DNA of 64,000 nt from an uncultured Burkholderiales bacterium (GTDB taxonomy: Bacteria > Pseudomonadota > Gammaproteobacteria > Burkholderiales > Thiobacillaceae), in NCBI GenBank assembly GCA_937949525.1, contig CALEDT010000010.1, positions 1 through 64,000 on the forward strand, in the 5' to 3' direction. Below the pieces are notes generated by a model. The model made no database searches. It saw only the letters and a program-made list of their open reading frames with translations, and was not told the origin of the DNA. The translations under genes and the position numbers were made by a program. Below, piece by piece: positions 12,077-37,477 of the stretch; position 1 is the first letter of the stretch; the number at the start of each line of letters is the position of its first letter.

Positions 12077-12089
12077 TCGGCACACCGGC

Positions 12090-12112: not shown

Positions 12113-12142
12113 CCGAACCCGCATACCTGAAAGGACACAGAC

Positions 12143-12570: not shown

Positions 12571-12591
12571 CTTAACCTTCCGAGGTAAGTG

Positions 12592-15303: not shown

Positions 15304-15313
15304 GGCAACGGTC

Positions 15314-16843: not shown

Positions 16844-16869
16844 CGGAAAGGATCATCGAGGTTGCGGCA

Positions 16870-18655: not shown

Positions 18656-18917
18656 CGCCCCGGCAGGCTGGGAAGCGCGCGGTAAACCACCGACGCTGTT
18701 TCGCCGTTTCGCGTTTGCGCGTTACGGCGACACGCGCGCCTTCCTGGACGCGCTCGCCGCGCTCAGCGAACAGACCGGGCTGCACCCGCAGAACATCAAC
18801 TTTGGCGCCACCTACGTCAATGTCACGCTGGAAGGCGCCGGCGGTGGCGTACCGGGCGAAGCCGAGCTGGATTTCGCGCGCCGGGTCAACGCGCTGTATC
18901 CGCCTGCCGGTGGCTGA
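18648..18917 (+). CDS. Alpha-carboxysome RuBisCO assembly factor acRAF (PCD-like)
   Basis: This 89-residue protein has the pterin-carbinolamine-dehydratase fold. In alpha-carboxysome operons that fold has been recruited as a RuBisCO folding and assembly chaperone. Segments RFAFARYGDTRAFLDALAAL and HPQNINFGATYVNVTLE show the fold. The catalytic histidine pattern of true dehydratases (HHP) is replaced by LHPQN, which fits a non-enzymatic role. It overlaps the ferritin-like gene and touches mcdA. Confidence 0.9.
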   Translation: MADAPAGWEARGKPPTLFRRFAFARYGDTRAFLDALAALSEQTGLHPQNINFGATYVNVTLEGAGGGVPGEAELDFARRVNALYPPAGG

Positions 18918-18918
18918 C

Positions 18919-19554
18919 GTGGCGACCCAGGTCACCGCCGTCATCAACCAGAAAGGCGGCGCCGGCAAGACCACGCTGGCCATGAACCTGGCCGCCGGTC
19001 TGGCGCGGCGGGCACCGACCGTGGTGATCGATCTCGATCCGCAGGGCTCCTCGCTGCAATGGGCCAGCCAGGGCAGCGCGCCCTTCCCGGCCACGGTCAA
19101 GCAGATCAACGGCCGCTGGGATGCGCGCACGCTGCACCAGAACTACCGCGCCTATCGTCACATGGTGCTGGACTGTCCGCCCTCGCTCGACAGCCACGCC
19201 TCGCTGCAGGCGCTACGCGCCTGCGACCTGGCGCTGATCCCGGTGCTGCCCTCCCCGGTCGATCTGTGGGCCAGCCTGCGCCTGCCGCGCGAGATCGAGG
19301 AAGCGCGCAAGGACAACGCCAACCTGCGGGCGTACATGGTGCTCAACCAGCTCGAACCGAAGAGCGCCATTTCCGCCGCCATGCACGACGCCCTGGCCGA
19401 GTTCGGGGTGCCGGTGCTGAACGCGGCCATGCGTCGCCGCGCCGCCTACCGCAGTGCGGCGCTGGAGGGCGTTTCGGTGTACCAGATGGGCAGCCGCGGC
19501 GCGCCGGCCGCGGCTGAGATCGAAGCCATCATTAACGAGGTGATCGCATCATGA
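18919..19554 (+). CDS. mcdA: Carboxysome-positioning ATPase McdA (ParA family)
   Basis: McdA is a ParA-type ATPase that binds the nucleoid and spaces carboxysomes through the cell so both daughters inherit them. It has 211 residues. The deviant Walker A KGGAGKTT lies at about 12-19, VVIDLDPQGSS at about 36-46, and VLDCPPS at about 76-82. The GTG at 18919, one base after the acRAF stop, is chosen; an in-frame GTG at 18910 is an alternative. Neither has a strong ribosome-binding site. It overlaps mcdB by ATGA. Confidence 0.92.
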   Translation: MATQVTAVINQKGGAGKTTLAMNLAAGLARRAPTVVIDLDPQGSSLQWASQGSAPFPATVKQINGRWDARTLHQNYRAYRHMVLDCPPSLDSHASLQALRACDLALIPVLPSPVDLWASLRLPREIEEARKDNANLRAYMVLNQLEPKSAISAAMHDALAEFGVPVLNAAMRRRAAYRSAALEGVSVYQMGSRGAPAAAEIEAIINEVIAS

Positions 19555-19913: not shown

Positions 19914-20840
19914 ATGCGTAACGATCCCTTCCTGCGAACCTATTCCCCGCGCCAGCAGGCTCTGGCGCGCGCCGCCGCCCAGCAGTCCGCCTACGGTCCG
20001 GCCGGCGCCGGCACGCGCGCAGCCGCCGACACCACCACCGCCGAGGTACTCGAGCCCTACCTGGTGAAGAGTGAGCCCTACTACCGCCCGGTGGCGGACG
20101 AGGTGGAACTGTACGAAGCCGCCTATTCGGTACGCATGCCGATGATGCTGAAGGGCCCCACCGGCTGCGGCAAGACGCGTTTCGTCGAATACATGGCGTG
20201 GAAGCTCGGCAAGCCGCTGATCACCGTCGCCTGCAACGAGGACATGACGGCCAGCGACCTGGTCGGCCGTTTCCTGCTCGATGCCAGCGGCACGCGCTGG
20301 CAGGACGGCCCGCTCGCCGTCGCCGCGCGTCACGGCGCCATCTGCTACCTGGACGAAGTGGTGGAAGCACGCCAGGACACCACCGTCGTGATCCACCCGC
20401 TGACCGACGCACGCCGCGTGCTGCCGCTGGAAAAGAAAGGCGAACTGATCGAGGCCCACCCGGACTTCCAAATCGTCATTTCCTACAACCCCGGCTACCA
20501 GTCGCTGATGAAGGATCTGAAGCAGTCCACCAAACAGCGTTTCGGCGCGCTGGATTTCAACTATCCGGAACACGACATCGAAGCCGAAATCGTCGCGCAC
20601 GAATCCGGCGTGACGCTGGACGTGGCCAAGAACTTGGTGCACATCGGCGAACGCGCGCGCAACCTCAAAGGCCACGGCCTCGACGAGGGCCTGTCCACGC
20701 GCATGCTGATCTACGCCGGCTCGCTGATCGCCAAGGGTGTGCCGCCGCTGGCCGCCTGCCGCGTCGCGCTGGTACGGCCGATCACCGACGACCCAGACAT
20801 GCGCGACGCGCTGGATTCCGCAGTCACCACCTATTTCTGA
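19914..20840 (+). CDS. cbbQ: RuBisCO activase AAA+ subunit CbbQ (carboxysomal type)
   Basis: CbbQ is a MoxR-type AAA+ ATPase that with CbbO removes inhibitory sugar phosphates from RuBisCO. It has 308 residues. An Ala/Gln-rich N-terminal extension of about 40 residues (SPRQQALARAAAQQSAYG) precedes the ATPase core. Walker A GPTGCGKT is at 81-88, Walker B is in ICYLDEV near 143, and the C-terminal CbbQ domain includes HGLDEGLSTRMLIYAG. The extension may target it to the carboxysome; that is inference. Confidence 0.94.
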   Translation: MRNDPFLRTYSPRQQALARAAAQQSAYGPAGAGTRAAADTTTAEVLEPYLVKSEPYYRPVADEVELYEAAYSVRMPMMLKGPTGCGKTRFVEYMAWKLGKPLITVACNEDMTASDLVGRFLLDASGTRWQDGPLAVAARHGAICYLDEVVEARQDTTVVIHPLTDARRVLPLEKKGELIEAHPDFQIVISYNPGYQSLMKDLKQSTKQRFGALDFNYPEHDIEAEIVAHESGVTLDVAKNLVHIGERARNLKGHGLDEGLSTRMLIYAGSLIAKGVPPLAACRVALVRPITDDPDMRDALDSAVTTYF

Positions 20841-20844
20841 TTCA

Positions 20845-20938
20845 GGATACGGGTTACGGGTTACCGGATACGGTCGTGTTGCGGCGCGGCGAGGCAGCGC
20901 GGATTGACCGAAACCTGGAACCCGGAACCTGAACCCCG
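20845..20938 (+). repeat. Two degenerate 7-bp repeat arrays between cbbQ and cbbO
   Basis: ACGGGTT repeats twice at 20849-20862 and continues as ACCGGAT-ACGG to 20873. A complementary-type array follows at 20912-20936 (aacctgg, aacccgg, aacctga, acccc). CGGGTT and AACCCG can pair, so the gap could fold into an imperfect hairpin in the mRNA ahead of cbbO. Confidence 0.5.
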
Positions 20939-23296
20939 ATGGCCATTCATCTCGAGGAATACCAGGAACTGCTGGACGACCTGCCGCACGACGCGCAGGA
21001 CGTGCTGCGCGCGTCATGGAACGAGGCCGCGCGGATATTCTCTGCGCGAGGCCTGGACAACTACATCAAGGGCGGGGTGGCGTTGCACCATCTCGGTCGC
21101 GGCGAGGAGCTGGTGGTCACCTACCTGCAGGAGATGCCGGAGGTGGCGCGCGCCATCGGCGAGGACGTGCTGCCGGAAGTGGTCAATTTCCTGCTCTCCA
21201 TGGCATCCAAGACCTCCGGCCAGGTGCTGACGCTGATCGCCGGGACCGCGCCGCTGGCGGCCGAGCGCCTGGGTGACGAGGATCTGTTCCGCAAGTATCT
21301 GAACGTGCTGTCCATCCTGCTCGCCCAAGCGCCGCGCGGCCTGCGGCCGATGCTGGAAAACCTCGACCGGCTGCTCACCCAGCTCACGCTCGGCGGCCTG
21401 CGCCGCTGGGTGCAATGGGGCGCACAGGCCTACAAGGCCGATTTCGATGGTCAGCAGCGCTATTTCTCGTTGCAGAGCCCGGACGCGCTGTCGGTGCTGC
21501 AATCGGAACGCAAGGGCACGCTGTTCGTCGACGTGCAGCGGCGCCTCAACATCTATCTGCGCGCCATGTGGGGGCGCGACTTCTTCCTGCGCCCCACCGC
21601 CGGCGACTACGAGAGCCGGGAGGGACTCAAGCCCTACATCGCGCATTACCAGATCTATATCGCCGACGCCTACGACGACTTTCGGCCGCAAGGCCCGGAC
21701 ACGCCGCCCGAGGCGGTCATCCCCGGCCTGGAGATCTACCGTGCAGCCGCCAATCACTGCGCCGCGCATCTGGTGTTCACCGCTGCGCCGCTGTCCATGC
21801 AGATGCTCAACACCACGCAGATGGCCATCATCGAGACCATCGAGGACGCCCGCGTGGAGGAACTGGCCTGCCGCCAGTTCCCCAACATGCGCAATGCCTG
21901 GCTGGCCTTCCACCCACCGCTGGACCCGGTCGAGCCGCAGACGGTGGGCGATCTGCTCAACCGGCTGGCGCGCGCATTGCTGGCACAGGACGACCGCGAC
22001 CCGCACCCCTGGGTGCGCACGGGTGTCGAGCTGTTCCGCGCCGAGCCGGATCTATCCAGCAACCAGGTGAGCTGGAACATCGGCGTTGAGTTGGCGCACC
22101 ACCTCGGCCAGATTCCGCTGCCGGAATACAACCCGCGCACCGACACGCTGCGCGCGCTGTACCGCGACGACAACCGCACGGTGTGGGAGTCGGAAGAGTA
22201 CGACGAACACGAAGCCCTGGAAGCCACCTGGCAGAGCCGGCAACAGGTGCGCAAGAAGGTCTCGGTGATGGAGATGGTCAACGAGGTCAACAACGAATTC
22301 GCCGGCGACGACGCGGAAGAGATCTGGGTGCTGGAAACTCCGTTCTGGCTCGACCAGGAAGGCAAGACCATCAACGAGTTGGAAGGCCGCGAGCCGATCG
22401 CCGACCCGGTGCACTACCACGAGTGGGATTACCAGATCCAGCTCGAACGGCCGAGCTGGGTCACCGTGCTGGAACGCCGCCCCAAGGCCGGCGAGCTGGA
22501 AGTGATCGAGCAGATCATCGACGACAACAAGCCGGTGATCTCGCGCCTCAAGTTCCTGATCGAATCCATGATCCCGCAGGGCATGCAGCGCATCCGCCGG
22601 GTCGAGGACGGCGACGAGCTGGACATCAACGCCGCCGTGCGCGCCATGATCGACATCCGCATGGGGCAGCAGCCGGATACGCGCATCATGATGCGCTACA
22701 AGCGCAACGTGCGTGATCTCGCGGTCATGGTGCTGCTGGACCTGTCGGAATCGTCCAACGACAAGGTGCGTGGCCAGGACTACACCATCCTGGATCTGAC
22801 CCGCGCCGCCACCGTGCTGCTGTCCGACGCGCTGGACCGCATCGGCGACCCGTTCGCGCTGCACGGCTTCTGCTCGGACGGACGGCACGACGTGCACTAC
22901 TACCGTTTCAAGGACTTCGCCCAGCCCTACGACGACCTGGTGAAGGCGCGTCTGGCGGCGATGAAAGGTTCGTACTCCACGCGCATGGGCGCCGCGCTAC
23001 GCCACGCCGCCAGCCACCTGAAACAACAGCCCAAGAACAAGAAAATCCTGTTCATCATCACCGACGGCGAACCCGCCGACAACGACGTGCGCGACCCGCA
23101 GTACCTGCGCCACGACACCAAGCGCGCGGTGGAGGAACTGCAACGCGACGGCATCACCACCTACGCGCTGTCGCTCGACCCGCATGCCGACCAGTATGTG
23201 TCGCGCATCTTCGGCGCCAAGAACTTCACGGTGCTGGACCACGTCGAGCGCCTGCCGGAAAAGTTGCCCATGCTGTACATGGGCCTGACGCGCTGA
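20939..23296 (+). CDS. cbbO: RuBisCO activase adaptor CbbO (von Willebrand A domain)
   Basis: CbbO is the substrate adaptor of the CbbQO activase; it docks the CbbQ ring on RuBisCO. It has 785 residues, matching the family. The long N-terminal domain is helical. The C-terminal vWA domain (about 585-785) has an intact metal-ion site motif DLSES (in AVMVLLDLSESSND) and FIITDGEPADND. It is the last gene of the operon. A 202-bp convergent gap follows, with no clear terminator. Confidence 0.94.
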   Translation: MAIHLEEYQELLDDLPHDAQDVLRASWNEAARIFSARGLDNYIKGGVALHHLGRGEELVVTYLQEMPEVARAIGEDVLPEVVNFLLSMASKTSGQVLTLIAGTAPLAAERLGDEDLFRKYLNVLSILLAQAPRGLRPMLENLDRLLTQLTLGGLRRWVQWGAQAYKADFDGQQRYFSLQSPDALSVLQSERKGTLFVDVQRRLNIYLRAMWGRDFFLRPTAGDYESREGLKPYIAHYQIYIADAYDDFRPQGPDTPPEAVIPGLEIYRAAANHCAAHLVFTAAPLSMQMLNTTQMAIIETIEDARVEELACRQFPNMRNAWLAFHPPLDPVEPQTVGDLLNRLARALLAQDDRDPHPWVRTGVELFRAEPDLSSNQVSWNIGVELAHHLGQIPLPEYNPRTDTLRALYRDDNRTVWESEEYDEHEALEATWQSRQQVRKKVSVMEMVNEVNNEFAGDDAEEIWVLETPFWLDQEGKTINELEGREPIADPVHYHEWDYQIQLERPSWVTVLERRPKAGELEVIEQIIDDNKPVISRLKFLIESMIPQGMQRIRRVEDGDELDINAAVRAMIDIRMGQQPDTRIMMRYKRNVRDLAVMVLLDLSESSNDKVRGQDYTILDLTRAATVLLSDALDRIGDPFALHGFCSDGRHDVHYYRFKDFAQPYDDLVKARLAAMKGSYSTRMGAALRHAASHLKQQPKNKKILFIITDGEPADNDVRDPQYLRHDTKRAVEELQRDGITTYALSLDPHADQYVSRIFGAKNFTVLDHVERLPEKLPMLYMGLTR

Positions 23297-23498: not shown

Positions 23499-24032
23499 CT
23501 ACACGCGCGACGAGCCCACCGGCGGCCGCCTGACCACGTCGCGGATGGCGCGCAGCAGCGCCAGCGGGCCCGGCGGACAACCCCGCAGCTCGACATCCAC
23601 CGGAATCACGTTGGCAACGCGGCCGCGGGAGGCATAGCTCGGGCCGAACAGACCGCCGTCGCAGGCGCAATCGCCCATGGCGATCACCCACTTGGGGTCT
23701 GGCGTCGCGTCATAACTGCGCCGCAGCGCGGTTTCCAGATGCGCGCTGACCGGACCGGTGACCAGCAGCACGTCGGCGTGGCGCGGACTGGCAGCGAAGC
23801 GGATGCCCAAACCCTCGATGTTGTAATGCGGTCCGTTGAGCGCGTGGATCTCCAGTTCGCAGCCGTTGCACGAACCGGCGTCGACGTGGCGGATGACCGG
23901 TGCGCGGCCGAACACCTGGCGCAGCTCGTCGTGCAGACGCGCGAATTCGGCTCGGTCGTCGTCGGACGCCGGCTGCGGCTCCGACACGATGCCGCAGCGC
24001 AGCATCTTGTGCAGTATCCGAAAGGTGGCCAT
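23499..24032 (-). CDS. NuoB/HycG-like iron-sulfur subunit of a hydrogenase-4-related complex
   Basis: This 177-residue subunit is the electron-transfer partner of the large subunit, homologous to complex I NuoB and hydrogenase-4 small subunits. All four cysteines of the proximal 4Fe-4S cluster are present: CNGC, AMGDC and ELRGC. It should therefore carry an N2-type cluster. The ATG at 24032, 2 bp after the large-subunit gene, is preferred over upstream options. It is the last gene of a six-gene minus-strand operon, converging on cbbO. Confidence 0.88.
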   Translation of the reverse strand: MATFRILHKMLRCGIVSEPQPASDDDRAEFARLHDELRQVFGRAPVIRHVDAGSCNGCELEIHALNGPHYNIEGLGIRFAASPRHADVLLVTGPVSAHLETALRRSYDATPDPKWVIAMGDCACDGGLFGPSYASRGRVANVIPVDVELRGCPPGPLALLRAIRDVVRRPPVGSSRV

Positions 24033-24034
24033 GG

Positions 24035-25585
24035 CTACAGATCCTGCCCCGAGTAACTGAGGTTGAAGGATTTGTTGATCAGCGGGAAGTCCGGCACGAT
24101 GTTGCCGAGAATGGCCAACTCCAGCAGCGGCCAGTTCTGCCACGATGGATCATGCGGATGCACGCGCTCCAGCCGGCCGTCGGTGCCGATATGCACCGAT
24201 ACCAACACGGGGCCGCGCCAGCCTTCCACCCAGCCCAGACCTTCGGCGTTTTGGCCGTGCGCACACACCTCGGAGCGGCAGGGTCCGGCCGGCAAGCGGC
24301 GAACGATCTCACCGATCAGGCGCAGCGACTCGGCCAGTTCCACGAAGCGCAGCTCGACTCGTGCCGCCACGTCGCCGCGAAGCCCCGTGGCCATGCGTAC
24401 ATCGAGCTGATCATACGGGGCATGGGCATACTGCACGCGCAAATCCCACGCCTGGCCGCTGGCACGCCCGGCCAGGCCGGCAAGCCCCAGGCGCGCGGCC
24501 AGATCCGGGCGTACCGTGCCGGTGTGGGCGAAACGGTCCTGCACGCCGGCGTGCTCGTCATAGATGCTGCGCAGTTCCGCCACCTCGTCGTGCAAACGGA
24601 CACAGGCCACGCGCAGTGGGTCCAACGAAGGTGGATCGACCGCCACCCCGCCGGGCACGATGTGGTCAAACAGGTAACGGTGGCCGAACAACTGCGCGCC
24701 GAGGCGCAGCCAGTCTTCCTTCAGCCGCCAGAACTGGTTGAAACCGAACGTCAGCGCCACGTCGTTGCCCAAATAACCGAGGTCGCCCAGGTGATTGGCC
24801 ACCCGCTCCATCTCCAGCATGAGCGCGCGCAGCCATAGCGCGCGCGCCGGCACAGCCACCCCCAGCGCGGCCTCCACCGCCTGGCAATAGGCCCAGGCAT
24901 AGGCGCTGTGGCTGTCGCCCGATACCCGCCCGGCGAGCCGTGCGCCGGTGACGAGATCCATGCCCTCGAAGCGTTTCTCGATACCCTTGTGCGTATAGCC
25001 CAGCCGCTCCTCCAGCCGGAGCACCTTTTCGCCGACCACGGAGAAACGGAAGTGTCCCGGTTCGATCACGCCGGCATGGATCGGACCGACCGGGATCTCG
25101 TGCACGCCCTCGCCAGCCACGCGCACGAACGCATAGCCGTCGTCGCCCCCGCCGCCGGCAGATGCCGCCGCCGCGTCGAAATCCTTGCGCAGCGGGTAGA
25201 CGTCGGCCGCCCAGGCGTCGTGGCGCAGCCACTTGCGCGTGTCCTCGGCGCCCTCGGCGACGATGCCGAGCAGATCGCGGGTCGCGCGCTGCATGCGCCC
25301 GGCCTGCGGAAACAGCCCGGCCAGATCGGGATAGGCCGGCCTATCGGTGTCCAGGGCACAGCGCGCCCAGATCAGCCCCAGGCTGGACAGGAACACGGTG
25401 TCGAGTGCGAAACTGCCGCCGGACGGACGCCCGTCGCTGCCCCACAACGCCAACAACTGCCCGCCCTCATCGCGGATCGCGCGCGCGAACGACGGCAGTC
25501 GTGCAGGCGTGAGCGAAAAGCGCCACAGCGCATCCTCGCCCTGCGGCGTCAAGGTCAGTTCCAGGTCCCCCAGCCGAGTTTCCAC
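24035..25585 (-). CDS. NuoCD/HycE-like large subunit without nickel ligands
   Basis: This 516-residue protein fuses a NuoC-like domain (about 1-150) to a NuoD/HycE-like domain (about 165-516). Where NiFe hydrogenases have RxCGxC, it has RVSGDS (220-225). The C-terminal DPCxxC motif is also absent; the protein ends INKSFNLSYSGQDL. So it cannot bind the NiFe centre and is not a hydrogenase. It groups by logic with energy-converting hydrogenase-related (Ehr) complexes. The start is a GTG at 25585, with GGGAGG 5 bases upstream. Substrate and electron donor are unknown. Confidence 0.88.
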   Translation of the reverse strand: METRLGDLELTLTPQGEDALWRFSLTPARLPSFARAIRDEGGQLLALWGSDGRPSGGSFALDTVFLSSLGLIWARCALDTDRPAYPDLAGLFPQAGRMQRATRDLLGIVAEGAEDTRKWLRHDAWAADVYPLRKDFDAAAASAGGGGDDGYAFVRVAGEGVHEIPVGPIHAGVIEPGHFRFSVVGEKVLRLEERLGYTHKGIEKRFEGMDLVTGARLAGRVSGDSHSAYAWAYCQAVEAALGVAVPARALWLRALMLEMERVANHLGDLGYLGNDVALTFGFNQFWRLKEDWLRLGAQLFGHRYLFDHIVPGGVAVDPPSLDPLRVACVRLHDEVAELRSIYDEHAGVQDRFAHTGTVRPDLAARLGLAGLAGRASGQAWDLRVQYAHAPYDQLDVRMATGLRGDVAARVELRFVELAESLRLIGEIVRRLPAGPCRSEVCAHGQNAEGLGWVEGWRGPVLVSVHIGTDGRLERVHPHDPSWQNWPLLELAILGNIVPDFPLINKSFNLSYSGQDL

Positions 25586-25586
25586 C

Positions 25587-27044
25587 TCAGCCTCCCAGCA
25601 ACAGCGTGGCCGCCTGGCGATACCAGTCGGCCAGATAGGCGGGAATGAACAGCCCCAGCGTCAGCACCAGGGCCAGATGGATGAATACCGGCACCAACGC
25701 CGGCTGATGCGGCAGGCGGGGCAGTCCGGCCTCGCCGAACACCATGGGCTGCACCTTGCCGAACACGCCGGCGAAGGTCACGCCCAACGCCAGCAGCAGC
25801 AGCGGTGTCGCCCAGGGCTGCGCGTGCATGGTGGTGGTGATGATCAGGAACTCGCTGGCGAACACGCCGAACGGCGGCATGCCGAGGATGGCGACGGTGC
25901 CCAGCATCAGCCCCCAACCGATGGTCGGATGACTGCCGACCAGGCCGCGGATGTCGGCCATGGCCTGCGTGCCCGCTGCCTGCGTGGCATGCCCCACGGC
26001 GAAAAAGATGGCCGACTTGGTCAGCGAATGCATGGTCATGTGCAGCAGCGCCGCGAAGTTGGCGACGGCGCCGCCCATGCCGAAAGCGAAGGTGATCAGC
26101 CCCATGTGTTCGATCGACGAGTACGCGAACAGGCGTTTGACATCGGTCTGGCGCTTGATCAGGAAGGCGGCGAGCAGTACCGACAACAGGCCAAAGCCCA
26201 TCATCAGGTTGCCGGCCAGCGGCGTGCCCAGGGCACCGTCGACCAGCACCTTGCAGCGCATCACCGCATACAGCGCGACGTTCAACAACAGCCCGGACAG
26301 CACCGCGGAAATCGGCGTCGGCCCCTCGGCATGCGCATCCGGCAGCCAGTTGTGCAGCGGCGCCAAGCCGACCTTGGTGCCGTAGCCGACCAACAGGAAG
26401 ATGAAGGCCAGTTGCAGCACCGTCGGCTCCAGTTGCGCCTTGACGCCGTTCAGGTGCGACCACAGCAACGCCGTGCCGCCGTCACCGAGCACCTTCTCCG
26501 CAGCGAAGTACAGCAATATGGTGCCGAACAGCGCCAGCGCGATGCCCACGCCGCACAGGATGAAGTACTTCCACGCCGCTTCCAGCGCCGCCGGCGTGCG
26601 GTACAGCGACACCAGCAGCACCGTGGCCAGCGTCGCGCCCTCCATGGCCACCCAGAGGATGCCCATGTTGTTGGTGGTCAGGGCCACCAGCATGGTGCCG
26701 ACGAAAATCTGGTAACTGGCGTGATACAGGCGCAGGCGACCGGCGCCGAGCCGACCGTGGTCCGCCTCGATGCGCATGTAGGGGCGCGAGAACAGCGCGG
26801 TGGTGAACGCGACGAAAGCGGTCAGCGCCACCAGGAAGACGTTGAACGGGTCGATGAAAAACCAGCCGTGACCGCCGATCATCGCCGGCCCGTGCGCGAT
26901 GACACGCAGGGTCAGGGCCGCCGCCCCGATCAGCGTGGCCAGACTGAAGGCGGCATTGACTTCCGGCGCGCCAGCGCGATGGCCCCACAGCGCCAGAACC
27001 GCGCCGCCCGCGAACGGCAGAGCCAGCAGCCAATAGATTTCCAT
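25587..27044 (-). CDS. HyfF/NuoN-like proton-antiporter subunit
   Basis: This 485-residue polytopic membrane protein belongs to the Mrp-antiporter-like family (NuoL/M/N, HyfF). It has about 13-14 predicted helices. Conserved channel regions include YFILCGVGIALALFGTILLYF, LNVALYAVMRCKVLVDG and FAYSSIEHMGLITFAFGMGG. It would move ions or protons in the membrane arm. It lies between the HyfE-like gene (1-bp gap) and the large-subunit gene (overlapping signals), a tightly packed operon. Confidence 0.88.
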   Translation of the reverse strand: MEIYWLLALPFAGGAVLALWGHRAGAPEVNAAFSLATLIGAAALTLRVIAHGPAMIGGHGWFFIDPFNVFLVALTAFVAFTTALFSRPYMRIEADHGRLGAGRLRLYHASYQIFVGTMLVALTTNNMGILWVAMEGATLATVLLVSLYRTPAALEAAWKYFILCGVGIALALFGTILLYFAAEKVLGDGGTALLWSHLNGVKAQLEPTVLQLAFIFLLVGYGTKVGLAPLHNWLPDAHAEGPTPISAVLSGLLLNVALYAVMRCKVLVDGALGTPLAGNLMMGFGLLSVLLAAFLIKRQTDVKRLFAYSSIEHMGLITFAFGMGGAVANFAALLHMTMHSLTKSAIFFAVGHATQAAGTQAMADIRGLVGSHPTIGWGLMLGTVAILGMPPFGVFASEFLIITTTMHAQPWATPLLLLALGVTFAGVFGKVQPMVFGEAGLPRLPHQPALVPVFIHLALVLTLGLFIPAYLADWYRQAATLLLGG

Positions 27045-27045
27045 G

Positions 27046-27708
27046 TCAGCGTTCTTTCAGCTTTTCCATGTGTTTCAGATCCAGCGAATCGAAGGTCTCG
27101 CGGATGTGAAAGAAGAAAATGCCCAGCACGAACAGCGCCACCAGCACATCCAGCGCCACACCCAGTTCGACCACCATGGGCATGCCGTAGGTGGCGCTGG
27201 TGGCGGCGAAGAACAGGCCGTTCTCCATGGCGAGAAATCCGATCACCTGCGGCATGGCCTTGCTGCGTGTGATCATCATCAGGAAGGCAAGCAGAACGCT
27301 GGCCAGCGCAATGCCCAGGGTCGAACGGGTGACCGTGCCGGCCATCTGGGCGATCGGCAAGGCCAGGTTGAAGGCGAAGATGACCAGCGCGATGCCGATC
27401 AGCATGGTGGTCGGAACGTTGATCATCGGCTCCACCTCGCGATCCATCTCCAACCGGCGCACCAGCCGGAAGAAGTACCAGGGAATCACGATCACCTTCA
27501 GCAACACCGTCAACGCCGCGGATCCATACAGGTGATGCTGGCCGGTGGACCAGGCGACGATGGCGGTGGATGCGGCCAGCGCCACGCCCTGCCAGGCCAG
27601 CAGCGTGATCAGCGCGACGATGCGCCGCTGCGACAGCATGGCGAAGGCGATCAGCAGCAGCAGCGCGGCCAGCAGGTTGACGACCTGGAGGTGATACGTC
27701 AGCGACAT
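27046..27708 (-). CDS. HyfE-like membrane subunit
   Basis: This 220-residue hydrophobic protein has about six helices and resembles HyfE of hydrogenase-4, whose C-terminal part is NuoK-like (AMENGLFFAATSATYGMPMVVELGVALDVLVALFV). It ends with a cytoplasmic tail DSLDLKHMEKLKER. The presence of HyfE, rather than separate NuoJ and NuoK, points to hydrogenase-4-type ancestry. Start ATG at 27708, 8 bp from the upstream HyfC-like gene. Confidence 0.87.
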   Translation of the reverse strand: MSLTYHLQVVNLLAALLLLIAFAMLSQRRIVALITLLAWQGVALAASTAIVAWSTGQHHLYGSAALTVLLKVIVIPWYFFRLVRRLEMDREVEPMINVPTTMLIGIALVIFAFNLALPIAQMAGTVTRSTLGIALASVLLAFLMMITRSKAMPQVIGFLAMENGLFFAATSATYGMPMVVELGVALDVLVALFVLGIFFFHIRETFDSLDLKHMEKLKER

Positions 27709-27716
27709 GGCGAGCC

Positions 27717-28661
27717 TCACACTTCCAGCAGGAAATGCACCAGCATGCCCAGCACCGCCAGCAGGAAGGCGGTGCCCAGGAACTCCGGCGCGCGGAACAG
27801 GCGCATCTTGGCGGACAGCGTCTCCAGCAGTGCCAGCGCGGCGCCGCCGAGCATCAGCTTGGCCACCAGCACGAGCAGCGCCAACGGCAACGCCGCCCAG
27901 TCGCCGCGCGGCGCGATGCCCCAGGGCAGGAACAGCGCGATGCCGAGCGCGGAATAGGTGAACAGCTTCAGCGCCACGGCCCACTCGATCAAGGCCAGAT
28001 GACGCCCGGAATACTCCAGGATCATGGCCTCGTGGATCATGGTCAGTTCCAGGTGGGTGGTGGGGTTGTCCACCGGGATGCGCGCATTTTCGGCGGTGGA
28101 CAGCATCCAGAATGCCACCGCGGCAAACGCCATGCTCGGATAGAGGGCGAACTCCTGGTGCGCCAGGCGCTCGACGATGTGCGGCAGCTCGGTGGACTGC
28201 GAGATCAGACTGGCGGTGAAGAACACCATCAGCAATGCCGGCTCGGCAAGAAAGGCGATCAGCATCTCCCGGCGCGCGCCCAGGCTGCCGAAAGCGGTGC
28301 CGACGTCCATGGCGGCCAGGGCCAGGAACACCCGCGCCAGCGCCAACAGTCCCACCAGCGCGATCACGTCCGCCGCCGGCGAGAACGGCAGATCGTTGGC
28401 CAGCGTGGGTACGATGCCGGCCGCCAGCGCCATGCAGGCGAACACGATATGGGGCGCGAAGCGGAACAGCGAGGTCGCGTCGTGCGCCAGCACCACATCC
28501 TTGTGCAACAGCTTGCGCAGCGTGTGATATGGCTGCAGCAGCGGCGGCGCCGAGCGCCCCAGCATCCAGGCGCGGCATTGGTTCACCCACCCCACCAGCA
28601 GCGGCGCGAGCAGCAGGGCCAGCAATGTTTGGGCGAGTTGCAGCAGGATCCCGGCGGTCAT
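27717..28661 (-). CDS. HyfC/NuoH-like membrane subunit
   Basis: This 314-residue membrane protein is the NuoH/HyfC homologue, which joins the soluble arm to the membrane arm. It has about eight helices and the typical motif region PVDNPTTHLELTMIHEAMILEYSG, rich in acidic residues that line the quinone/proton path in relatives. It is 4 bp from the HyfB-like gene. Confidence 0.9.
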   Translation of the reverse strand: MTAGILLQLAQTLLALLLAPLLVGWVNQCRAWMLGRSAPPLLQPYHTLRKLLHKDVVLAHDATSLFRFAPHIVFACMALAAGIVPTLANDLPFSPAADVIALVGLLALARVFLALAAMDVGTAFGSLGARREMLIAFLAEPALLMVFFTASLISQSTELPHIVERLAHQEFALYPSMAFAAVAFWMLSTAENARIPVDNPTTHLELTMIHEAMILEYSGRHLALIEWAVALKLFTYSALGIALFLPWGIAPRGDWAALPLALLVLVAKLMLGGAALALLETLSAKMRLFRAPEFLGTAFLLAVLGMLVHFLLEV

Positions 28662-28665
28662 GGCG

Positions 28666-30678
28666 TCACCCGGTCACGAACACCAGCAGCACGATCAGCG
28701 TGGCGAAACTGTAGATCAGATACCACTGGATGCGACCGTGCTGCAGCCGGCCGGTGCGCTCGGAAAGCCATGCCACAGCCTCCCCGACCGGCCGGTAGAG
28801 CAGCAGCCACAGCCGGTCGCGGCTGTCGCCGCGGTATTCCGGGTGGCGATCGAACGGATCCGGCGTGTGCCGCTCGACCCGCATGAAGGCACTGAAGATA
28901 TGGCGGATGGGTTGACCGAAACCCTCGGCGCTGTCCTGCATGCACGCATCCTGCTCGGGATAGCCGCAATCCCACGGCGCGGCGCGGCGCACGCGGCCAT
29001 GAAACAGACGCCTGACGCCGAAGAACACCGCCACCGTGACCGTGACGACCACGCCCAGGAACAGCAGCGGCGCATAACTCGCGCGTTCGGCGGCGATCGG
29101 CGCGAGCAGCAGCGGATTGCCATCGTTGACCAGCGCCAAACCGATCAACTGCCGCGTCACCGGCGCCAGCCCCTCGACCACGAAGGACGGAAACAGGCCC
29201 AGCAGGACGCAACCCGCAGCCAGCCACAGCATGCCCAGCCGCTCCGGCCAGCCGGCATCATGCGCCTGCTGCAGCGCGGCATCGCGTGGCCGGCCCAGAA
29301 ACACCACACCGTAGAACTTGACCATGACATAGGCGGCCAGCGCCGCCGCCAGCACCACCACCGCCGCGGCCACCGGAATCACCATGTTCAGATACGGCCG
29401 GTCCAGCCCCGGCGTGAGCAGGAACGCCTGCAACAACAGCCACTCCGACACGAAACCGTTGAGCGGCGGTAGCCCGGCGATGGCCAACGCGCCGATCAGC
29501 GTCAGCCATGCCGTCCAAGGCATGGTGCGGATCAGCCCGCCCAGGCGCCCCATGCGCCGCTCGCCGGTGGCATGCAGCACCGAGCCGGTGCCGATGAACA
29601 GCAGACCCTTGAACAGCGCGTGATTGAGGGCGTGGTACAGCAGCGCGGTCAGCGTCAACGCCGCCAGCATCGGCTTGCCGTCGACGTGGAAGATCAGCGT
29701 CAGGCCGAAGCCGGCGACGATCAGGCCGATGTTCTCGATCGACGACCACGCCAGCAGGCGCTTCATGTCCGACTGCACGGCTGCGAAGATCACACCGTAC
29801 AGCGCGCTGGCCAGGCCCAGGGCGAGCGCCAGCACCCCCCACCAGGCCAGCGTCACCCCCAGCAGATCGAACGTCACGCGCAGCAGGCCGTAGATGGCGG
29901 TCTTCAACATGACCCCACTCATCAGCGCCGAGACCGGCGAAGGCGCCGCCGGATGCGCCTCCGGCAACCACACGTGCAAAGGCACCAGCCCCGCCTTGGC
30001 GCCGAAACCGAACAGCGCCAGCAGGAACGCGACCGATGCCCATGCCGGCGTCGTCTCGGCCAGACGCATCGCGTCGAAAGCGTAGGAGCGCGCGTGACCC
30101 GACTCGCCGCCGTGCAGCACGCCAAAGCACAACAGCAGCGCCACCGCACCGACATGGGCGATGAGCAGATAGAGAAAGCCGGCGCGGCGGATCTCCGGCA
30201 CGGCATGGTCGCTGGTGACCAGGAAATACGAGGCCAGCGCCATCACTTCCCACGCCACCATGAATGCGTAGGCGTCATCCGCCAGCAGCACCAAGGCCAT
30301 GCCGGCCAAAAACAGGTGGTACCACAGCGCCAACTCGGCCAGCGGGACCGCCGCCAGCGCACGGAAATAGCCGGTGGCATGCAGGGTCACGCCGAACGAC
30401 GCGACGCCGAGCAACAGCAGAAAGAACCCGGACAGCGCATCCAGGCGCAGATGGAACGGCAGATCGGGGAGACCCATGGGCAGGACGAAAGCCGACGGCG
30501 GCAGCATCAGCGCAGTCGCGCCGATGCCGGCCATGAGCAGACCACCGAGCGCGCCCAGCGGCAGTATCCAGCGCGTGATGCGCGCGGCCTGGCGCCGACC
30601 GGCCAGCGCTGCCGCGGCGAGCGCGAGCCAGTACAGCACCACGCCCCAGGCCCAGTCCAGTGGCGCGGTTTCAGGCAC
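28666..30678 (-). CDS. HyfB/NuoL-like proton-antiporter subunit (start uncertain)
   Basis: This is the first gene of the Ehr-like operon, a NuoL/HyfB-type antiporter subunit with about 15 helices. Motif regions include FMVAWEVMALASYFLVTSDHA, LLAWSSIENIGLIVAGFGL and LYHALNHALFKGLLFIGTGS, with the key membrane lysine/histidine regions visible. The GTG at 30678, preceded by GAGG, gives 670 residues. Longer starts are possible (GTG 30687, or 30744), but they add sequence before the first helix with no family look. Confidence 0.88.
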   Translation of the reverse strand: MPETAPLDWAWGVVLYWLALAAAALAGRRQAARITRWILPLGALGGLLMAGIGATALMLPPSAFVLPMGLPDLPFHLRLDALSGFFLLLLGVASFGVTLHATGYFRALAAVPLAELALWYHLFLAGMALVLLADDAYAFMVAWEVMALASYFLVTSDHAVPEIRRAGFLYLLIAHVGAVALLLCFGVLHGGESGHARSYAFDAMRLAETTPAWASVAFLLALFGFGAKAGLVPLHVWLPEAHPAAPSPVSALMSGVMLKTAIYGLLRVTFDLLGVTLAWWGVLALALGLASALYGVIFAAVQSDMKRLLAWSSIENIGLIVAGFGLTLIFHVDGKPMLAALTLTALLYHALNHALFKGLLFIGTGSVLHATGERRMGRLGGLIRTMPWTAWLTLIGALAIAGLPPLNGFVSEWLLLQAFLLTPGLDRPYLNMVIPVAAAVVVLAAALAAYVMVKFYGVVFLGRPRDAALQQAHDAGWPERLGMLWLAAGCVLLGLFPSFVVEGLAPVTRQLIGLALVNDGNPLLLAPIAAERASYAPLLFLGVVVTVTVAVFFGVRRLFHGRVRRAAPWDCGYPEQDACMQDSAEGFGQPIRHIFSAFMRVERHTPDPFDRHPEYRGDSRDRLWLLLYRPVGEAVAWLSERTGRLQHGRIQWYLIYSFATLIVLLVFVTG

Positions 30679-30878
30679 CGGCCTCACCCACCCAATGGCC
30701 CAACTGCATTGTGACCGCACGACGAGCGCCCGACCGGCGCCCATCGCCCGCCTCCACCGCCGGCGGGCGGCAACCGGCGTACCGTTCCTGGTGCGGACAC
30801 CGGTATCGATGTGCGATTCCTGCGCAGTGAACGACCGGGCACCGGGAATGGACTTGGACCGACATCACGTATTTGAAT

Positions 30879-30908
30879 TTGATGCGAATAAGATGTGCGT
30901 TAGATTAT
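30879..30908 (+). promoter_or_regulatory. Possible sigma-70 promoter for the ribbon-helix-helix gene
   Basis: TTGATG (30879-30884) and GATTAT (30903-30908) are 18 bp apart in a locally AT-rich island within GC-rich sequence, 28 bp before the start codon. This divergent gap (30679-30935) should also hold the promoter of the Ehr-like operon, which I could not place. Confidence 0.4.
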
Positions 30909-30935
30909 CATGCTTTGGTGCATCAGGAGCAACCG

Positions 30936-31130
30936 ATGGAACACAAGACCGCCCGCCTCACCGTGCTGCTCGACCCGGCCAAGAAACGCGCCTTCGAGAC
31001 GCTGTGCGCGCAACAGGACATGACACCGTCACAGGTCGTGCGCCAGTTGATCCGTGAACATCTGAGAAAACATGGTGTGGAGTGGCGTCCGAGCGGCGCG
31101 GACGATAAAAACCGTTCGGTACCGGAGTGA
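30936..31130 (+). CDS. Small ribbon-helix-helix (CopG/Arc-type) DNA-binding protein
   Basis: This 64-residue protein shows the RHH pattern: a short strand (TARLTVLLD), helix (PAKKRAFETLCAQQ), a turn (DMTPSQ) and a helix (VVRQLIREHLRKHG). RHH proteins bind operators as dimers. AGGAG lies 6 bases before the ATG. It sits divergent to the Ehr-like operon and upstream of the SLC13 permease, so it may regulate one or both. No toxin gene is adjacent, so a toxin-antitoxin role looks unlikely. Confidence 0.75.
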   Translation: MEHKTARLTVLLDPAKKRAFETLCAQQDMTPSQVVRQLIREHLRKHGVEWRPSGADDKNRSVPE

Positions 31131-31246: not shown

Positions 31247-33097
31247 ATGACCACCGACCAAGGTCTGATCCTCACCATCCTGCTCGCCACGGTGGCCCTG
31301 TTCCTGTGGGGCCGCTGGCGCCACGACATGGTGGCGGTATCCGCCCTGCTCGCCTGCGTGCTGGCGGGACTCATCACGCCGGCGCAGGCGTTCGCCGGTT
31401 TCGGCCATCCGGCCGTGGTCACCGTCGCCTGCGTGCTGGTGCTCAGCAGCGGCCTGCAGACCTCGGGCGCGGTGGATGCGCTGACCCGCGCCGTGCTGCC
31501 GGCGCGCGCCGGCATCACCCTCAGTCTGGCTGCGCTGGTCGGTCTGGGCGCGCTGCTGTCGGGGTTCATGAACAATGTCGGCGCGATGGCCCTATTGATG
31601 CCGGTGGCCATGCAACTGGCCGGACGCCTGAACCTCACGCCGGGCCAGGTACTGATGCCTCTGGCCTTCGGCACCATCCTGGGCGGGATGACGACATTGA
31701 TCGGCACGCCGCCCAATCTCATCGTCTCCGGCTTCCGCGCGCAGACCGGCGTCGGCAGTTTCGCCATGTTCGACTTCGCCCCGGTCGGTCTGGCCGTGGC
31801 CGTCACCGGCATCCTGTTCGTCGCCCTGCTTGGCTGGCGCCTGGTGCCGAAACGCCAGCCCGCCGGCATGGAAGGCTTCGAGTCCGGTGCCTACATCACC
31901 GAGGCGCGCGTGCCCAAGGACAGCAAGGCGGCAGGCTCGAATCTGCGCGAGATCGAGGCGATGCTGGACGGCATCGATGCGCAGATCATCGGCCTGGTGC
32001 ACCGGGGCGTGCGCCTGACCGCGCCCAATGCGCGGCGCACGGTGCGCGCCGGCGACATCCTGCTGATCGAGGCGGAGGCCGAAGCCTTGGCAGGCGTGCT
32101 CTCCACGCTCGGCCTGATCCTGGAGGAAGCGGTGACGCCCACGCCCGCCGCCGATGCCGCACTGACCGCGGAGTCCGGTGACACGGCGGGCGCCGACGTC
32201 GACACACACGACACGACGCCGGATCGAGCCGCGGACTCGGGCGAGATCGCCCTGATGGAATTGGCCGTACTGCCCAGTTCGACCCTGGTCGGACGTTCGG
32301 CCAGCGATCTCCTGCTGCGCACCCGCTACGGGCTCAACCTGCTGGCGCTGTCACGCGAGGGGCAACGCTCGATGAAGCGTCTGCGTTCGGTGGCCATCCA
32401 GTCCGGTGATCTGCTGCTGATGCAAGGGCCGCCGGAGGCCCTGGCCGAGTTCGCCGCCGACCATGGCTGCGTACCGCTGGCCGAACGCGAACTGCGCATT
32501 CCCGACCGGCACAAGGCCTGGCAGGCCGGTTCGATCATGGCGGTGGCCGTCGGCGGCGCGGCCTTCGGCCTGGTGCCGGCGGCCATCGCCTTCGCCGCCG
32601 GCGTGCTCGCGTCCATGGTGCTGCGCACCGTGCCGCCGCGCGCCGTCTACGAGGCTATCGACTGGCCGGTGATCGTGTTGTTGGCGGCACTGATCCCGGT
32701 GGCCGGCGCGATGGAAACGACCGGTACCGCGGATCTGATCGCCCGCTTCATGCTCGACCATCTGGCGCAGGGTCACGCCGTCATCGGCCTGGCAATGGTC
32801 CTGGTGGTGACGATGTTCCTGTCCGACCTGATGAACAACGCCGCCACGGCGGCGGTAATGTGTCCGATCGCCATCGGCACCGCCATGGCCCTGGGGGTCA
32901 GCGCCGATGCGTTCCTGATGGCAGTGGCGATCGGTGCCTCGTGCGCCTTCCTCACCCCCATCGGCCACCAGAACAATACCCTGATCCTGGGCCCCGGCGG
33001 CTTCCGTTTCGGCGACTACTGGCGCATGGGCCTGCCGCTGGAGCTGGTGGTGATCGCGGTCAGCCTGCCCACGCTGCTGCTGGTCTGGCCACTGTGA
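31247..33097 (+). CDS. SLC13-family permease with two TrkA-C domains
   Basis: This 616-residue inner-membrane transporter belongs to the divalent-anion:sodium symporter superfamily. Two membrane halves (about 1-200 and 425-616), each with a GxxxN-type hairpin (SGFMNNVGAMALLMP, SDLMNNAATAAVMCP) and a TPPN/GHQN substrate loop, flank two soluble TrkA-C (RCK_C) domains at about 212-290 and 335-410. Substrate is uncertain: sulfate is common for this architecture, but the location in a carbon-supply cluster also allows a Ci role. An acidic, low-complexity linker (about 298-330) joins the two TrkA-C domains. Confidence 0.85.
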   Translation: MTTDQGLILTILLATVALFLWGRWRHDMVAVSALLACVLAGLITPAQAFAGFGHPAVVTVACVLVLSSGLQTSGAVDALTRAVLPARAGITLSLAALVGLGALLSGFMNNVGAMALLMPVAMQLAGRLNLTPGQVLMPLAFGTILGGMTTLIGTPPNLIVSGFRAQTGVGSFAMFDFAPVGLAVAVTGILFVALLGWRLVPKRQPAGMEGFESGAYITEARVPKDSKAAGSNLREIEAMLDGIDAQIIGLVHRGVRLTAPNARRTVRAGDILLIEAEAEALAGVLSTLGLILEEAVTPTPAADAALTAESGDTAGADVDTHDTTPDRAADSGEIALMELAVLPSSTLVGRSASDLLLRTRYGLNLLALSREGQRSMKRLRSVAIQSGDLLLMQGPPEALAEFAADHGCVPLAERELRIPDRHKAWQAGSIMAVAVGGAAFGLVPAAIAFAAGVLASMVLRTVPPRAVYEAIDWPVIVLLAALIPVAGAMETTGTADLIARFMLDHLAQGHAVIGLAMVLVVTMFLSDLMNNAATAAVMCPIAIGTAMALGVSADAFLMAVAIGASCAFLTPIGHQNNTLILGPGGFRFGDYWRMGLPLELVVIAVSLPTLLLVWPL

Positions 33098-33273: not shown

Positions 33274-34419
33274 TCACAAGCGCACGACCACGTCGCGATG
33301 CTGGGTCAGCGCCTGAATCGCGCGTTCCAGATCGAGCTGGGACGGATTGACCGCGCACGCCTCGCCCAGACGGGCGAACAGTTCGTCTTGTTCGAACACC
33401 TGGCGCGTGCCGTCGGCGCGTTGCAGGTAAGCGGCCCAGGGCACGAACTTGGTCAGCGGGAAGTCGTCGCCGTGCTTGGGCGAGATGTCGATGTTGAGAC
33501 CGGCCACGAACAGCAGATTGCGGCCATGCATGACCGGCGCACGCACGAAGCTGCGATAGGTGCGCTCGAATTCCGCCAGCGTATTGGCGCACGCCGCGGT
33601 CAGCAACGGATGCTTGGCGGTAACGATCCAGGGCATGGGCGCCAGCAGGTTTTCCTCCAACTGGTCCTGGAACGGGTCTTCCTGGGCGCCCTCACGGCGG
33701 AAATAGAAATCCTCCGCCTCCAGGCGCGCGCCCAGCGCCTCGCTGCCCTCGGCCGGCCAGGCCGCCTCGCCCAAGCGCGCGATCAGCCCATCCGCGGCCA
33801 GGAACACGTGGCCGGTGCTGCGCGTCGCCAGGGGGCGCGGCAGTTCGCGTCCGGCGCCGCGTACCAGACGTTCGAACAACGGAAACAGGCCGGGGCCGCG
33901 CGTGCGCGAGATCAGCAGGTAGTCGACCAGCACCGCCAGTTCGCCGTCATGACGCATGAGCCGGATGTTCTCGCTGGCATACGCGTACTCCGCGGCATAG
34001 CTCTCGATGACGCTGCCGATCTTGCCGCAGGAACAACTGTTGGTTTCGTGCTCGGTGCGCAGCCGTCGATACACGCCGAACTCGCCGCTGTCGGCGTCGT
34101 AGCCGACATGACTGGCCTGCAACAGCAGCAGATCCTTGCCGTGTTCGGCATGCGGCGCGTGCCGGTTGAGCGACACGATGCCGCCGACGCGACCGTGGTT
34201 GAACGGAAACGCGCCGAAATGCTTGGTCATCAGGATGGTGGGAAAGCCCTGGCTCTCGTCGGAACAGAACGCGCGCGAGGGCATGATGCGCGCCGCGTCG
34301 AAACCCAGCGCCAGGCACCAGTTGTACAGCTTGGGCACGAAAGCGCTGTAACACAGCATGTAGCCGTCCAGGCGAAAGCTGGCGAGCGCACTGGGGATGC
34401 TGGCGCGATTGGAAAACAT
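33274..34419 (-). CDS. LCIB-like beta/theta carbonic anhydrase domain protein
   Basis: This 381-residue protein appears homologous to algal LCIB/LCIC carbonic anhydrases. C52 (in FCSDES), H104 (in QASHVGYD) and C131 (in SCSCGKI) match the family zinc-ligand spacing (about 54 then 26 residues), and FGVYRR and HAP segments also fit. D54 is present two after the first cysteine; position 56 is Ser. The C-terminal 200 residues are unfamiliar. It is divergent from the SulP transporter across 82 bp. It may hydrate CO2 or recapture leaked CO2 for that transporter; this is inference. Confidence 0.68.
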   Translation of the reverse strand: MFSNRASIPSALASFRLDGYMLCYSAFVPKLYNWCLALGFDAARIMPSRAFCSDESQGFPTILMTKHFGAFPFNHGRVGGIVSLNRHAPHAEHGKDLLLLQASHVGYDADSGEFGVYRRLRTEHETNSCSCGKIGSVIESYAAEYAYASENIRLMRHDGELAVLVDYLLISRTRGPGLFPLFERLVRGAGRELPRPLATRSTGHVFLAADGLIARLGEAAWPAEGSEALGARLEAEDFYFRREGAQEDPFQDQLEENLLAPMPWIVTAKHPLLTAACANTLAEFERTYRSFVRAPVMHGRNLLFVAGLNIDISPKHGDDFPLTKFVPWAAYLQRADGTRQVFEQDELFARLGEACAVNPSQLDLERAIQALTQHRDVVVRL

Positions 34420-37473: not shown

Positions 37474-37477
37474 CACC

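Follow-up and report, generated by a model that had tools for sequence, protein, structure and literature searches.

A predicted nickel-free Ehr-type complex encoded among carbon-acquisition genes of a Thiobacillaceae bacterium, and its possible role in inorganic-carbon uptake

The window analysed here is a stretch of 64,000 nucleotides (contig CALEDT010000010.1 of assembly GCA_937949525.1, positions 1 to 64,000) from the 2.68-Mb genome of an uncultured bacterium of the family Thiobacillaceae, order Burkholderiales. At positions 23499-30744 it carries six minus-strand genes in the order hyfB-C-E-F-G-I. Judged from its sequence, the encoded complex is a nickel-free Ehr-type complex, kin of hydrogenase-4 and formate hydrogenlyase. 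In relatives, the operon is linked to genes for a SulP-family anion transporter and a gamma-carbonic anhydrase, and in a few genomes also to cbbLSQO. We propose, with a confidence just short of even, that this ion-translocating complex works in inorganic-carbon acquisition together with SulP and carbonic anhydrase in this autotroph and its relatives.

The hyf operon and its lost nickel site

All six genes named, in this order, in a preliminary description of the DNA are present. The limit of hyfB given there, 30678, reflects a choice of start codon, and the open frame extends to 30744. The genes are as follows.

28666-30744, minus strand: hyfB-like, NuoL/HycC-type ion-translocating membrane subunit (NCBIfam NF005086, 883 bits, cut-off 667)
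27717-28661, minus strand: hyfC-like, NuoH-type membrane anchor (PF00146, 115 bits, cut-off 27)
27046-27717, minus strand: hyfE-like membrane subunit (NF008556, 85 bits, under the cut-off of 136; without a Pfam match)
25587-27044, minus strand: hyfF-like, NuoN/M-type ion-translocating subunit (NF005045, 837 bits, cut-off 543)
24035-25585, minus strand: hyfG-like, fused NuoC+D / HycE-like large subunit (PF00329 and PF00346)
23499-24032, minus strand: hyfI-like, NuoB/HycG-like small subunit (PF01058)

From hyfB to hyfI the intergenic gaps are 4, -1, 1, 1 and 2 nt, and thus hyfBCEFGI are likely to form one transcription unit. The hyfE-like gene accompanies the other hyf genes in relatives too. 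Within the operon, which is flanked by a gene in the cbbO position and a gene for an RHH_9 protein, we found no ferredoxin-like subunit (HyfA/HyfH), no NuoI-type or NADH-module gene and no electron-input subunit. Elsewhere in the genome there are a stronger NuoD match (contig C58) and matches to NiFe hydrogenases (contigs C1, C41 and C61).

The motif RVSGDS of HyfG aligns to RVCGIC of Escherichia coli HycE and NLSYSG aligns to DPCYSC, which bears out the missing nickel site of the preliminary description. The four nickel-ligand positions of the window protein are S222, S225, S510 and G513. Across the aligned HyfG rows (fetched relatives, with some genomes counted twice), position 1 is S in 115, C in 7, A in 5 and V in 1 of 128, position 2 is S in 105, T in 16 and A in 7 of 128, position 3 is S in 117, A in 6 and N in 4 of 127, and position 4 is G in 125 and A in 1 of 126. 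Since position 2 is S, T or A in every row, none of these proteins can retain four nickel cysteines, and the comparison of 128 homologous rows indicates that the observation as a whole is not due to chance. Assignment to the group 4 NiFe hydrogenases was rejected, as S, S, S and G stand in place of the two CxxC motifs and HyfA/HyfH are absent from the operon.

The four cluster cysteines of HyfI, noted earlier for the small subunit, are present in the window and invariant in 122 to 124 rows. HyfB has E166, K250, K281, H375 and K379, of which E166, K250 and K379 are invariant (81 to 83 rows) and K281 is K in 76 of 81; HyfF has E135, K224, H339 and K343, of which E135, K224 and K343 are invariant (120 to 123 rows). 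We take these to be the ion-path residues of NuoL/M-type subunits. Because they and the HyfI cysteines are kept, both the ion pump and an Fe-S cluster appear to be intact. When HyfG is aligned to Nqo4, a glycine occupies the position of the tyrosine of the 49-kDa subunit and a residue other than histidine that of the histidine; these two are presumably the quinone-site residues of complex I.

A HyfG profile of 19 homologues (alignment A1, which took 19 of the 30 loci fetched in the HyfG search) was compared with solved structures and matched E. coli HycE first (E 4e-85), followed by MBH and Nqo4. Foldseek with the predicted HyfG model likewise placed HycE first (7z0s_E, TM 0.81). The model has a pLDDT of 75, with residues 145-201 and 491-516 below 50; since the C-terminal portion of the emptied metal site falls within the latter, we make no claim on the pocket. 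A group-4-like large subunit without nickel ligands, an Fe-S small subunit and antiporter-like membrane subunits were thus found together, in support of the earlier designation as a nickel-free Ehr-type complex.

HyfG at 54% identity or more was found in 64 of 250 genomes of the order, including that of the window and two with fragmentary genes. We call these genomes hyf+ by this cut-off of our own, and distant matches such as that of G190 (34%) were scored hyf-. In a sample of the phylum, 71 of 398 genomes passed E 1e-60, 63 of them with at least 41% identity and the other 8 with 32-33%. We named 80 loci, the best of 580 relatives; their sources are Betaproteobacteria, methanotrophs, Nitrospirae and others, with Thiobacillus among the relatives. 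Where the stretch is long enough these loci hold the six genes together, except for L104 (no hyfB or hyfC match) and L107 (no hyfI match). Among plasmid records there were 82 matches at E 1e-40. Rhizobium, Azospirillum, Cupriavidus and Burkholderia head the list, which also includes Escherichia and Klebsiella records that are not necessarily of the nickel-free type. A Variovorax plasmid (L171, 1-1389) has, about 3.5 kb ahead of the six-gene set, a second NuoC-like gene and after it a gene for a 4Fe-4S protein; this pair hints at a sister complex that includes a ferredoxin subunit.

SulP, carbonic anhydrase and RuBisCO genes near the complex

Of the order's 64 hyf+ genomes, 49 encode a SulP. 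Among the matches listed, at least 17 of the 64 have it within 10 kb of hyfG (G000, G129, G050, G095, G035, G206, G182, G135, G014, G145, G243, G248, G161, G187, G067, G150 and G045). The distance is up to 13 kb in G062 and G020, and in G167 SulP lies 115 bp from hyfB, on a different contig than hyfG. We treat these 20 genomes as the SulP-linked set. The scored proximity amounts to 16 genomes against 0.99 expected (Poisson P 2e-14, relatedness ignored). As a control, SulP was found within 10 kb of NuoD in none of 12 hyf+ genomes with SulP and a listed NuoD place, SulP-linked or not (compared by eye).

Of 20 fetched regions, 13 have SulP directly upstream of hyfB and on the same strand, with aligned gaps of 57 to 489 bp; these regions were picked mostly for a nearby SulP, so that counts within them are not linkage tests. 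Three SulP subtypes (our labels, by best BLAST query) occupy this slot, one of them in L124 only. Among the 80 named loci, 14 have SulP within the stretch that was fetched (L033, L034, L043, L055, L065, L072, L080, L085, L099, L100, L106, L108, L109 and L111). It is also the commonest family among genes upstream of hyfB, with 10 of 80 proteins drawn from 111 selected (a count before open-ended ones were removed); at least one SulP, that of L065, is among those left out. A different SulP sits upstream of hyfB in methanotroph loci of the Methylobacter type.

Several further features of the SulP loci were observed. A long SulP subtype (window 34505-36631, L033, L065, L116, L119-L123, L125 and L132), the type most often adjoining hyfB in the fetched regions, has an insert of about 120 residues, charged and coiled-coil-like by eye, that splits the Pfam transporter domain. 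Genes for a histidine kinase and a sigma-54 response regulator recur near SulP (L113, L116, L117, L119, L120, L125, L126 and L128; the regulator without the kinase in L132), and a pair at 60587-63554 of the window is weakly similar to them. A C-terminal extension of SulP in L123 (10606-13170) resembles universal stress protein domains by eye, and Usp matches occurred in 5 of 90 scanned neighbours, drawn from 139 in the fetched regions. A TauE/SafE-type permease lies near SulP and hyf in L114, L115, L127, L128, L129 and L130, accompanied in five of these six by a small protein of a 90-aa type.

Another recurrent neighbour of SulP and hyf encodes a protein of 186 residues, which is similar to Cam of Methanosarcina (E ~1e-29) and CcmM (1e-25), and more weakly to the gamma-carbonic anhydrase subunits of plant and algal complex I. 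In the alignment it has the three metal-binding histidines and the conserved R, Q and D, and its motifs NIQDGVVIH and IAHRSIVHG, which we take to hold the metal-ligand positions, are intact in all 12 copies listed; by these features it is a predicted Cam/CcmM-type gamma-carbonic anhydrase. A search of the 64 hyf+ genomes found it (67% identity or more) in 15, in 9 of which it lies within 13 kb of the complex, against 0.15 expected (relatedness ignored). It is near SulP at another place in G129 and G206 and without visible linkage to the complex in G034, G057, G008 and G122, the copy of G122 being near a contig end. Nine of the 20 fetched regions contain it.

At E <1e-100, 44 of the 64 hyf+ genomes have RuBisCO, as do 49 of the 186 that are hyf- (p 4e-9, relatedness ignored). 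Within the hyf+ genomes it is present in 20 of 20 with linked SulP, compared with 11 of 29 with unlinked SulP (p 3e-6) and with 24 of all 44 others (p 1e-4). A further 59 hyf+ genomes, 56 of them outside the order, include 34 with RuBisCO at the same threshold. The genes cbbR-cbbL-S-Q-O follow hyfI at about 4.3 kb in G014 and G243 (two species of one genus; regions L160 and L161), and in G248 and G150 a cbb set lies about 24 kb from hyfG.

The window itself contains the following genes around the operon.

10616-12469, plus strand: cbbL and cbbS, RuBisCO large and small subunits
12589-17127, plus strand: csoS2, csoSCA and an EutN/CcmL-family vertex protein (CsoS4 position), alpha-carboxysome
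19914-23296, plus strand: cbbQ and a VWA-domain protein in the cbbO position
30873-31130, plus strand: RHH_9 ribbon-helix-helix protein, divergent from hyfB
31247-33097, plus strand: DASS/CitMHS-type transporter with TrkA-C
33274-34359, minus strand: marginal LCIB-like putative carbonic anhydrase (24.5 bits against a cut-off of 25; 25.7 bits in a second search)
34505-36631, plus strand: SulP + STAS anion transporter of the long type with the transporter-domain insert, candidate bicarbonate transporter
37833-38777, plus strand: SbtA-family Na+-dependent bicarbonate transporter (PF05982, 380 bits)
38782-39072, plus strand: PII-family protein in the SbtB position beside SbtA

Upstream of hyfB the order is thus RHH_9, DASS/CitMHS, LCIB-like, SulP-STAS, a trypsin-like protein, SbtA and the PII protein, with SulP 1.2 kb from SbtA; on the other side, the cbbO-position gene and hyfI stand tail to tail with a 202-bp gap. 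The stretch around hyf reads as a carbon-acquisition region. Relatives of the RHH_9 protein occur in 19 of the 80 named loci, not always adjoining hyfB, L127 and L065 have a DASS relative between hyf and SulP, and L130 has one adjoining hyf. A 111-aa protein without a Pfam match (37445-37780), encoded between the trypsin-like gene and SbtA, has relatives (56-64%) after cbbO in L159, L160 and L161. Between the carboxysome genes and cbbQ (18468-19554) are a ParA-family gene in the McdA position and a frame with a sub-cut-off match to pterin dehydratase.

The order in L034 is SulP, gamma-carbonic anhydrase and hyfBCEFGI, and that in L127 is hyfB, gamma-carbonic anhydrase, DASS and SulP. In view of the order in the window (hyfB, RHH_9, DASS, LCIB-like, SulP), the LCIB-like protein may replace the gamma-carbonic anhydrase there. 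The LCIB-like protein comprises 361 aa, of which a long C-terminal region lies beyond the LCIB match, and by eye shows the motifs CSDE, SHVG and C-x-C-G. Against PtLCIB4 it gave E 0.19, ranked under an unrelated top match at E 0.16, and its predicted fold (pLDDT 33) was unusable. The LCIB model passes in one of 250 genomes of the order, that of the window itself. Thus the co-occurrence with lcib-like genes that the preliminary description had put forward as a check was not found, and LCIB was rejected as a conserved partner. Apparent 'lcib' matches in L033, L065, L123 and L132 were also discarded, being a false N-terminal extension antisense to SulP.

A possible role in inorganic-carbon acquisition

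The preliminary description had suggested a link of the complex to inorganic-carbon uptake, possibly with a carbonic-anhydrase partner, and to carboxysomes. Its interpretation holds in part. The link to inorganic-carbon genes agrees with SulP and gamma-carbonic anhydrase near the complex in relatives and with SulP, SbtA and PII in the window. A carbonic-anhydrase partner is seen as the adjoining gamma-type in some relatives, while the window offers the marginal LCIB-like match. The carboxysome link is not supported. Although 12 of 64 hyf+ genomes have csoS2, against 16 of the 186 hyf- ones (p 0.037), the counts within RuBisCO-containing genomes are 12 of 44 and 16 of 49 (p 0.65), and as there is no excess in this comparison, carboxysome linkage was rejected as a general rule.

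In the mechanism that we propose, the antiporter-like HyfB and HyfF would carry protons or Na+ through the membrane, and this transport would be coupled to electron transfer at, or close to, the one Fe-S cluster of HyfI and the emptied HyfG pocket. The complex would energise, or act together with, the SulP bicarbonate transporter and a carbonic anhydrase, which would be the gamma-type in several relatives and perhaps the LCIB-like protein in the window, and the outcome would be raised cytoplasmic bicarbonate for RuBisCO. One possibility is that a proton or Na+ gradient is supplied to SulP. An alternative possibility could be that CO2 hydration by the carbonic anhydrase is made one-way. Such one-way hydration is assumed for NDH-1MS and DAB. 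What we infer here is the electron donor and acceptor, the coupled ion, the carriage of bicarbonate by SulP and any physical contact with the carbonic anhydrase.

A stronger form of the proposal, which we consider unlikely, is that SulP, the carbonic anhydrase (gamma-type, or LCIB-like in the window) and HyfBCEFGI make up one energised machine for inorganic-carbon uptake. The carbonic anhydrase would dock on the membrane arm, the proton paths would make CO2 hydration one-way, and bicarbonate would be taken up by SulP. Such a machine would add to NDH-1MS and DAB a third kind of CO2/bicarbonate pump derived from complex I, this one driven by redox, and in bacteria it would parallel the gamma-carbonic anhydrase of plant complex I.

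Several observations weigh against a role in carbon acquisition. Of the 64 hyf+ genomes of the order, 20 lack RuBisCO at E <1e-100, including G057 and G008, which carry the unlinked gamma-carbonic anhydrase. A tree of 62 HyfG (G011 and G126, with fragmentary hyfG, omitted) requires five or more changes in SulP linkage, and an independent-pairs test of this linkage against RuBisCO found 2 pairs on supported branches, which is too few; linkage trait counts omit seven genomes with too little upstream contig (G201, G081, G100, G164, G006, G030 and G131). In light of these two results the genome counts are not independent, and the Fisher and Poisson values are inflated by relatedness. In the window, SulP is divergent and outside the hyf operon, the LCIB family match is marginal, and its genome has no close gamma-carbonic anhydrase. 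In the further 59 hyf+ genomes, many of whose contigs are too short, SulP lies within 10 kb in one (G430). SulP proteins also carry sulfate and other anions, and TauE/SafE genes occur in 6 of the 20 fetched regions. Furthermore, plasmids of Rhizobium, Bradyrhizobium, Burkholderia and Variovorax carry the six genes together, and no SulP or carbonic anhydrase is listed within 10 kb in these four regions, for which the gene table is incomplete.

Heterotrophs thus carry the bare operon, which suggests that the core activity of the complex is broader and makes a general redox pump the main and a serious rival. Such a pump would transfer electrons between the quinone pool and a donor in the cytoplasm, translocating ions as it does so, or run in reverse for reductant, and it would lie near carbon genes only because autotrophs group or co-regulate energy and carbon genes. 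Besides the heterotroph operons with no SulP or carbonic anhydrase listed beside them, the spread through the phylum (the 63 of 398 genomes) with the single nearby SulP in 59 is in keeping with this explanation, as is the finding that the nearest solved relatives are formate hydrogenlyase, complex I, MBH and MBS. Ehr complexes are also described as of unknown function (PMC10284858, in its passages on Ehr). However, a general pump does not predict the excess of SulP and gamma-carbonic anhydrase near the complex, the window operon is without an electron-input subunit, and HyfG is without the quinone-site Tyr and His of complex I. We regard it as possible, though rather less probable than an even chance would have it.

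The complex might instead be fed electrons by formate dehydrogenase, which appears improbable to us. Passages in several papers point in this direction: a core hyf cluster of Acidithiobacillus caldus lies few genes from formate dehydrogenase (PMC3826726), subunits of Ehr in Geobacter reach higher levels on formate than with hydrogen (PMC7894505), a formate dehydrogenase-Ehr complex was proposed in Margulisbacteria (PMC6349859), and hyfBCEFGI of Acidithiobacillus ferrooxidans, scored as a non-hydrogenase, was given a possible role in formate oxidation (PMC7735108). However, formate dehydrogenase is absent from the 25 commonest families listed for the 80 upstream neighbours, from the 25 listed for the 90 fetched-region neighbours and from the scanned genes of the window. 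About equally improbable is a role in sulfur-oxyanion traffic, in which SulP and TauE/SafE would move sulfate or sulfite in sulfur oxidisers and the complex would supply the ion gradient. The TauE/SafE genes in 6 of 20 regions, the name sulfate permease for PF00916 and the presence of Thiobacillus among the relatives fit such a role, but SulP is upstream of hyfB in Methylobacter-type methanotrophs too, the gamma-carbonic anhydrase in 9 of 20 regions is left unexplained, and the window SulP is close to SbtA. A working hydrogenase-4 that consumes protons as H2, as suggested by the family names and by a proposal for A. caldus (PMC3826726), can be dismissed almost with certainty, since no HyfG row keeps all four nickel cysteines, the A. 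ferrooxidans Hyf was scored as a non-hydrogenase and matches to NiFe hydrogenases lie elsewhere in the genome.

For Ehr complexes, which occur widely, a concrete hypothesis follows from the recurring proximity of transporter and carbonic anhydrase genes. Because it adjoins genes for SulP and a carbonic anhydrase in a number of CO2-fixing relatives, the complex is a testable candidate for a part in carbon uptake. If this is true, chemolithoautotrophs have a carbon-uptake system absent from the toolkit for dissolved inorganic carbon listed in a review (PMC10880623), which in its listing names SbtA, SulP/BicA, Chr, Cmp, NDH-1-type complexes and DAC; the word 'hyf' is absent from its text.

Comparison with known systems

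The preliminary description had called the complex the best candidate for an undescribed system, which is too strong. In the open-licence literature, we recognised no paper among the matches listed, beyond those cited here, that joins hyf, SulP and carbonic anhydrase in carbon uptake, but the same six genes, hyfBCEFGI, are in print for A. ferrooxidans (PMC7735108) and for Cupriavidus metallidurans and C. necator, where passages of the paper judge a role in lithotrophic growth very unlikely (PMC2864759). The HyfG of C. metallidurans is 58% identical, and no carbon-uptake function is proposed in the passages on these genes. In A. caldus, the hyfBCEFG genes are also near carbonic anhydrase or carbon-fixation genes: one cluster adjoins a beta-carbonic anhydrase, with H2 evolution and pH/CO2 homeostasis suggested for it, and another co-occurs with carbon-fixation genes and formate dehydrogenase, the authors reading an H2-evolving hydrogenase (PMC3826726, in its hyf passages). 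A hyf set without the ferredoxin subunit HyfA is mentioned for a vent gammaproteobacterium (part of PMC4136832). SulP likewise stands beside a carbonic anhydrase in can2-sulP of A. ferrooxidans, where can2 transcripts drop with rising CO2 (PMC6458275, in the section on these genes); this system differs in having a beta-carbonic anhydrase, and 'hyf' is absent from the text of that paper.

HycE of the E. coli formate hydrogenlyase/hydrogenase-4 group is nearest to HyfG; unlike those complexes, the operon here has no nickel site and no ferredoxin or formate dehydrogenase subunits. Respiratory complex I differs in the quinone-site Tyr/His, not found in HyfG, and in the NuoI/NADH module, not found in the operon. 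The DAB/MpsAB system (DabA-DabB) shares a complex-I-type membrane subunit beside CO2 genes, and DAB2, a complex that includes a complex-I-like subunit, is described as coupling CO2 hydration to the membrane potential (PMC13144422). However, the comparison with DAB, raised earlier, shows that the present system is not DAB, as the genome has no match to DabA (PF10070), and HyfG and HyfI are present here. NDH-1MS (CupA/CupB) and plant mitochondrial complex I with its gamma-carbonic anhydrase also combine a complex-I-like machine with a carbonic-anhydrase-type partner; the likeness here is one of gene neighbourhood alone, in relatives, and no NuoI-type subunit is in the operon.

By its features the complex groups with the Ehr complexes of Geobacter and comammox Nitrospira, which likewise have a group-4-like large subunit without the CxxC ligands (passages of PMC10284858), and Ehr complexes also share NuoL-like and HyfE-like membrane subunits with the present one (PMC7894505, in part). 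Unlike the Ehr of Geobacter and Nitrospira, the complex here is a six-gene set that, in some autotrophic relatives, is linked to SulP, gamma-carbonic anhydrase and cbb genes.

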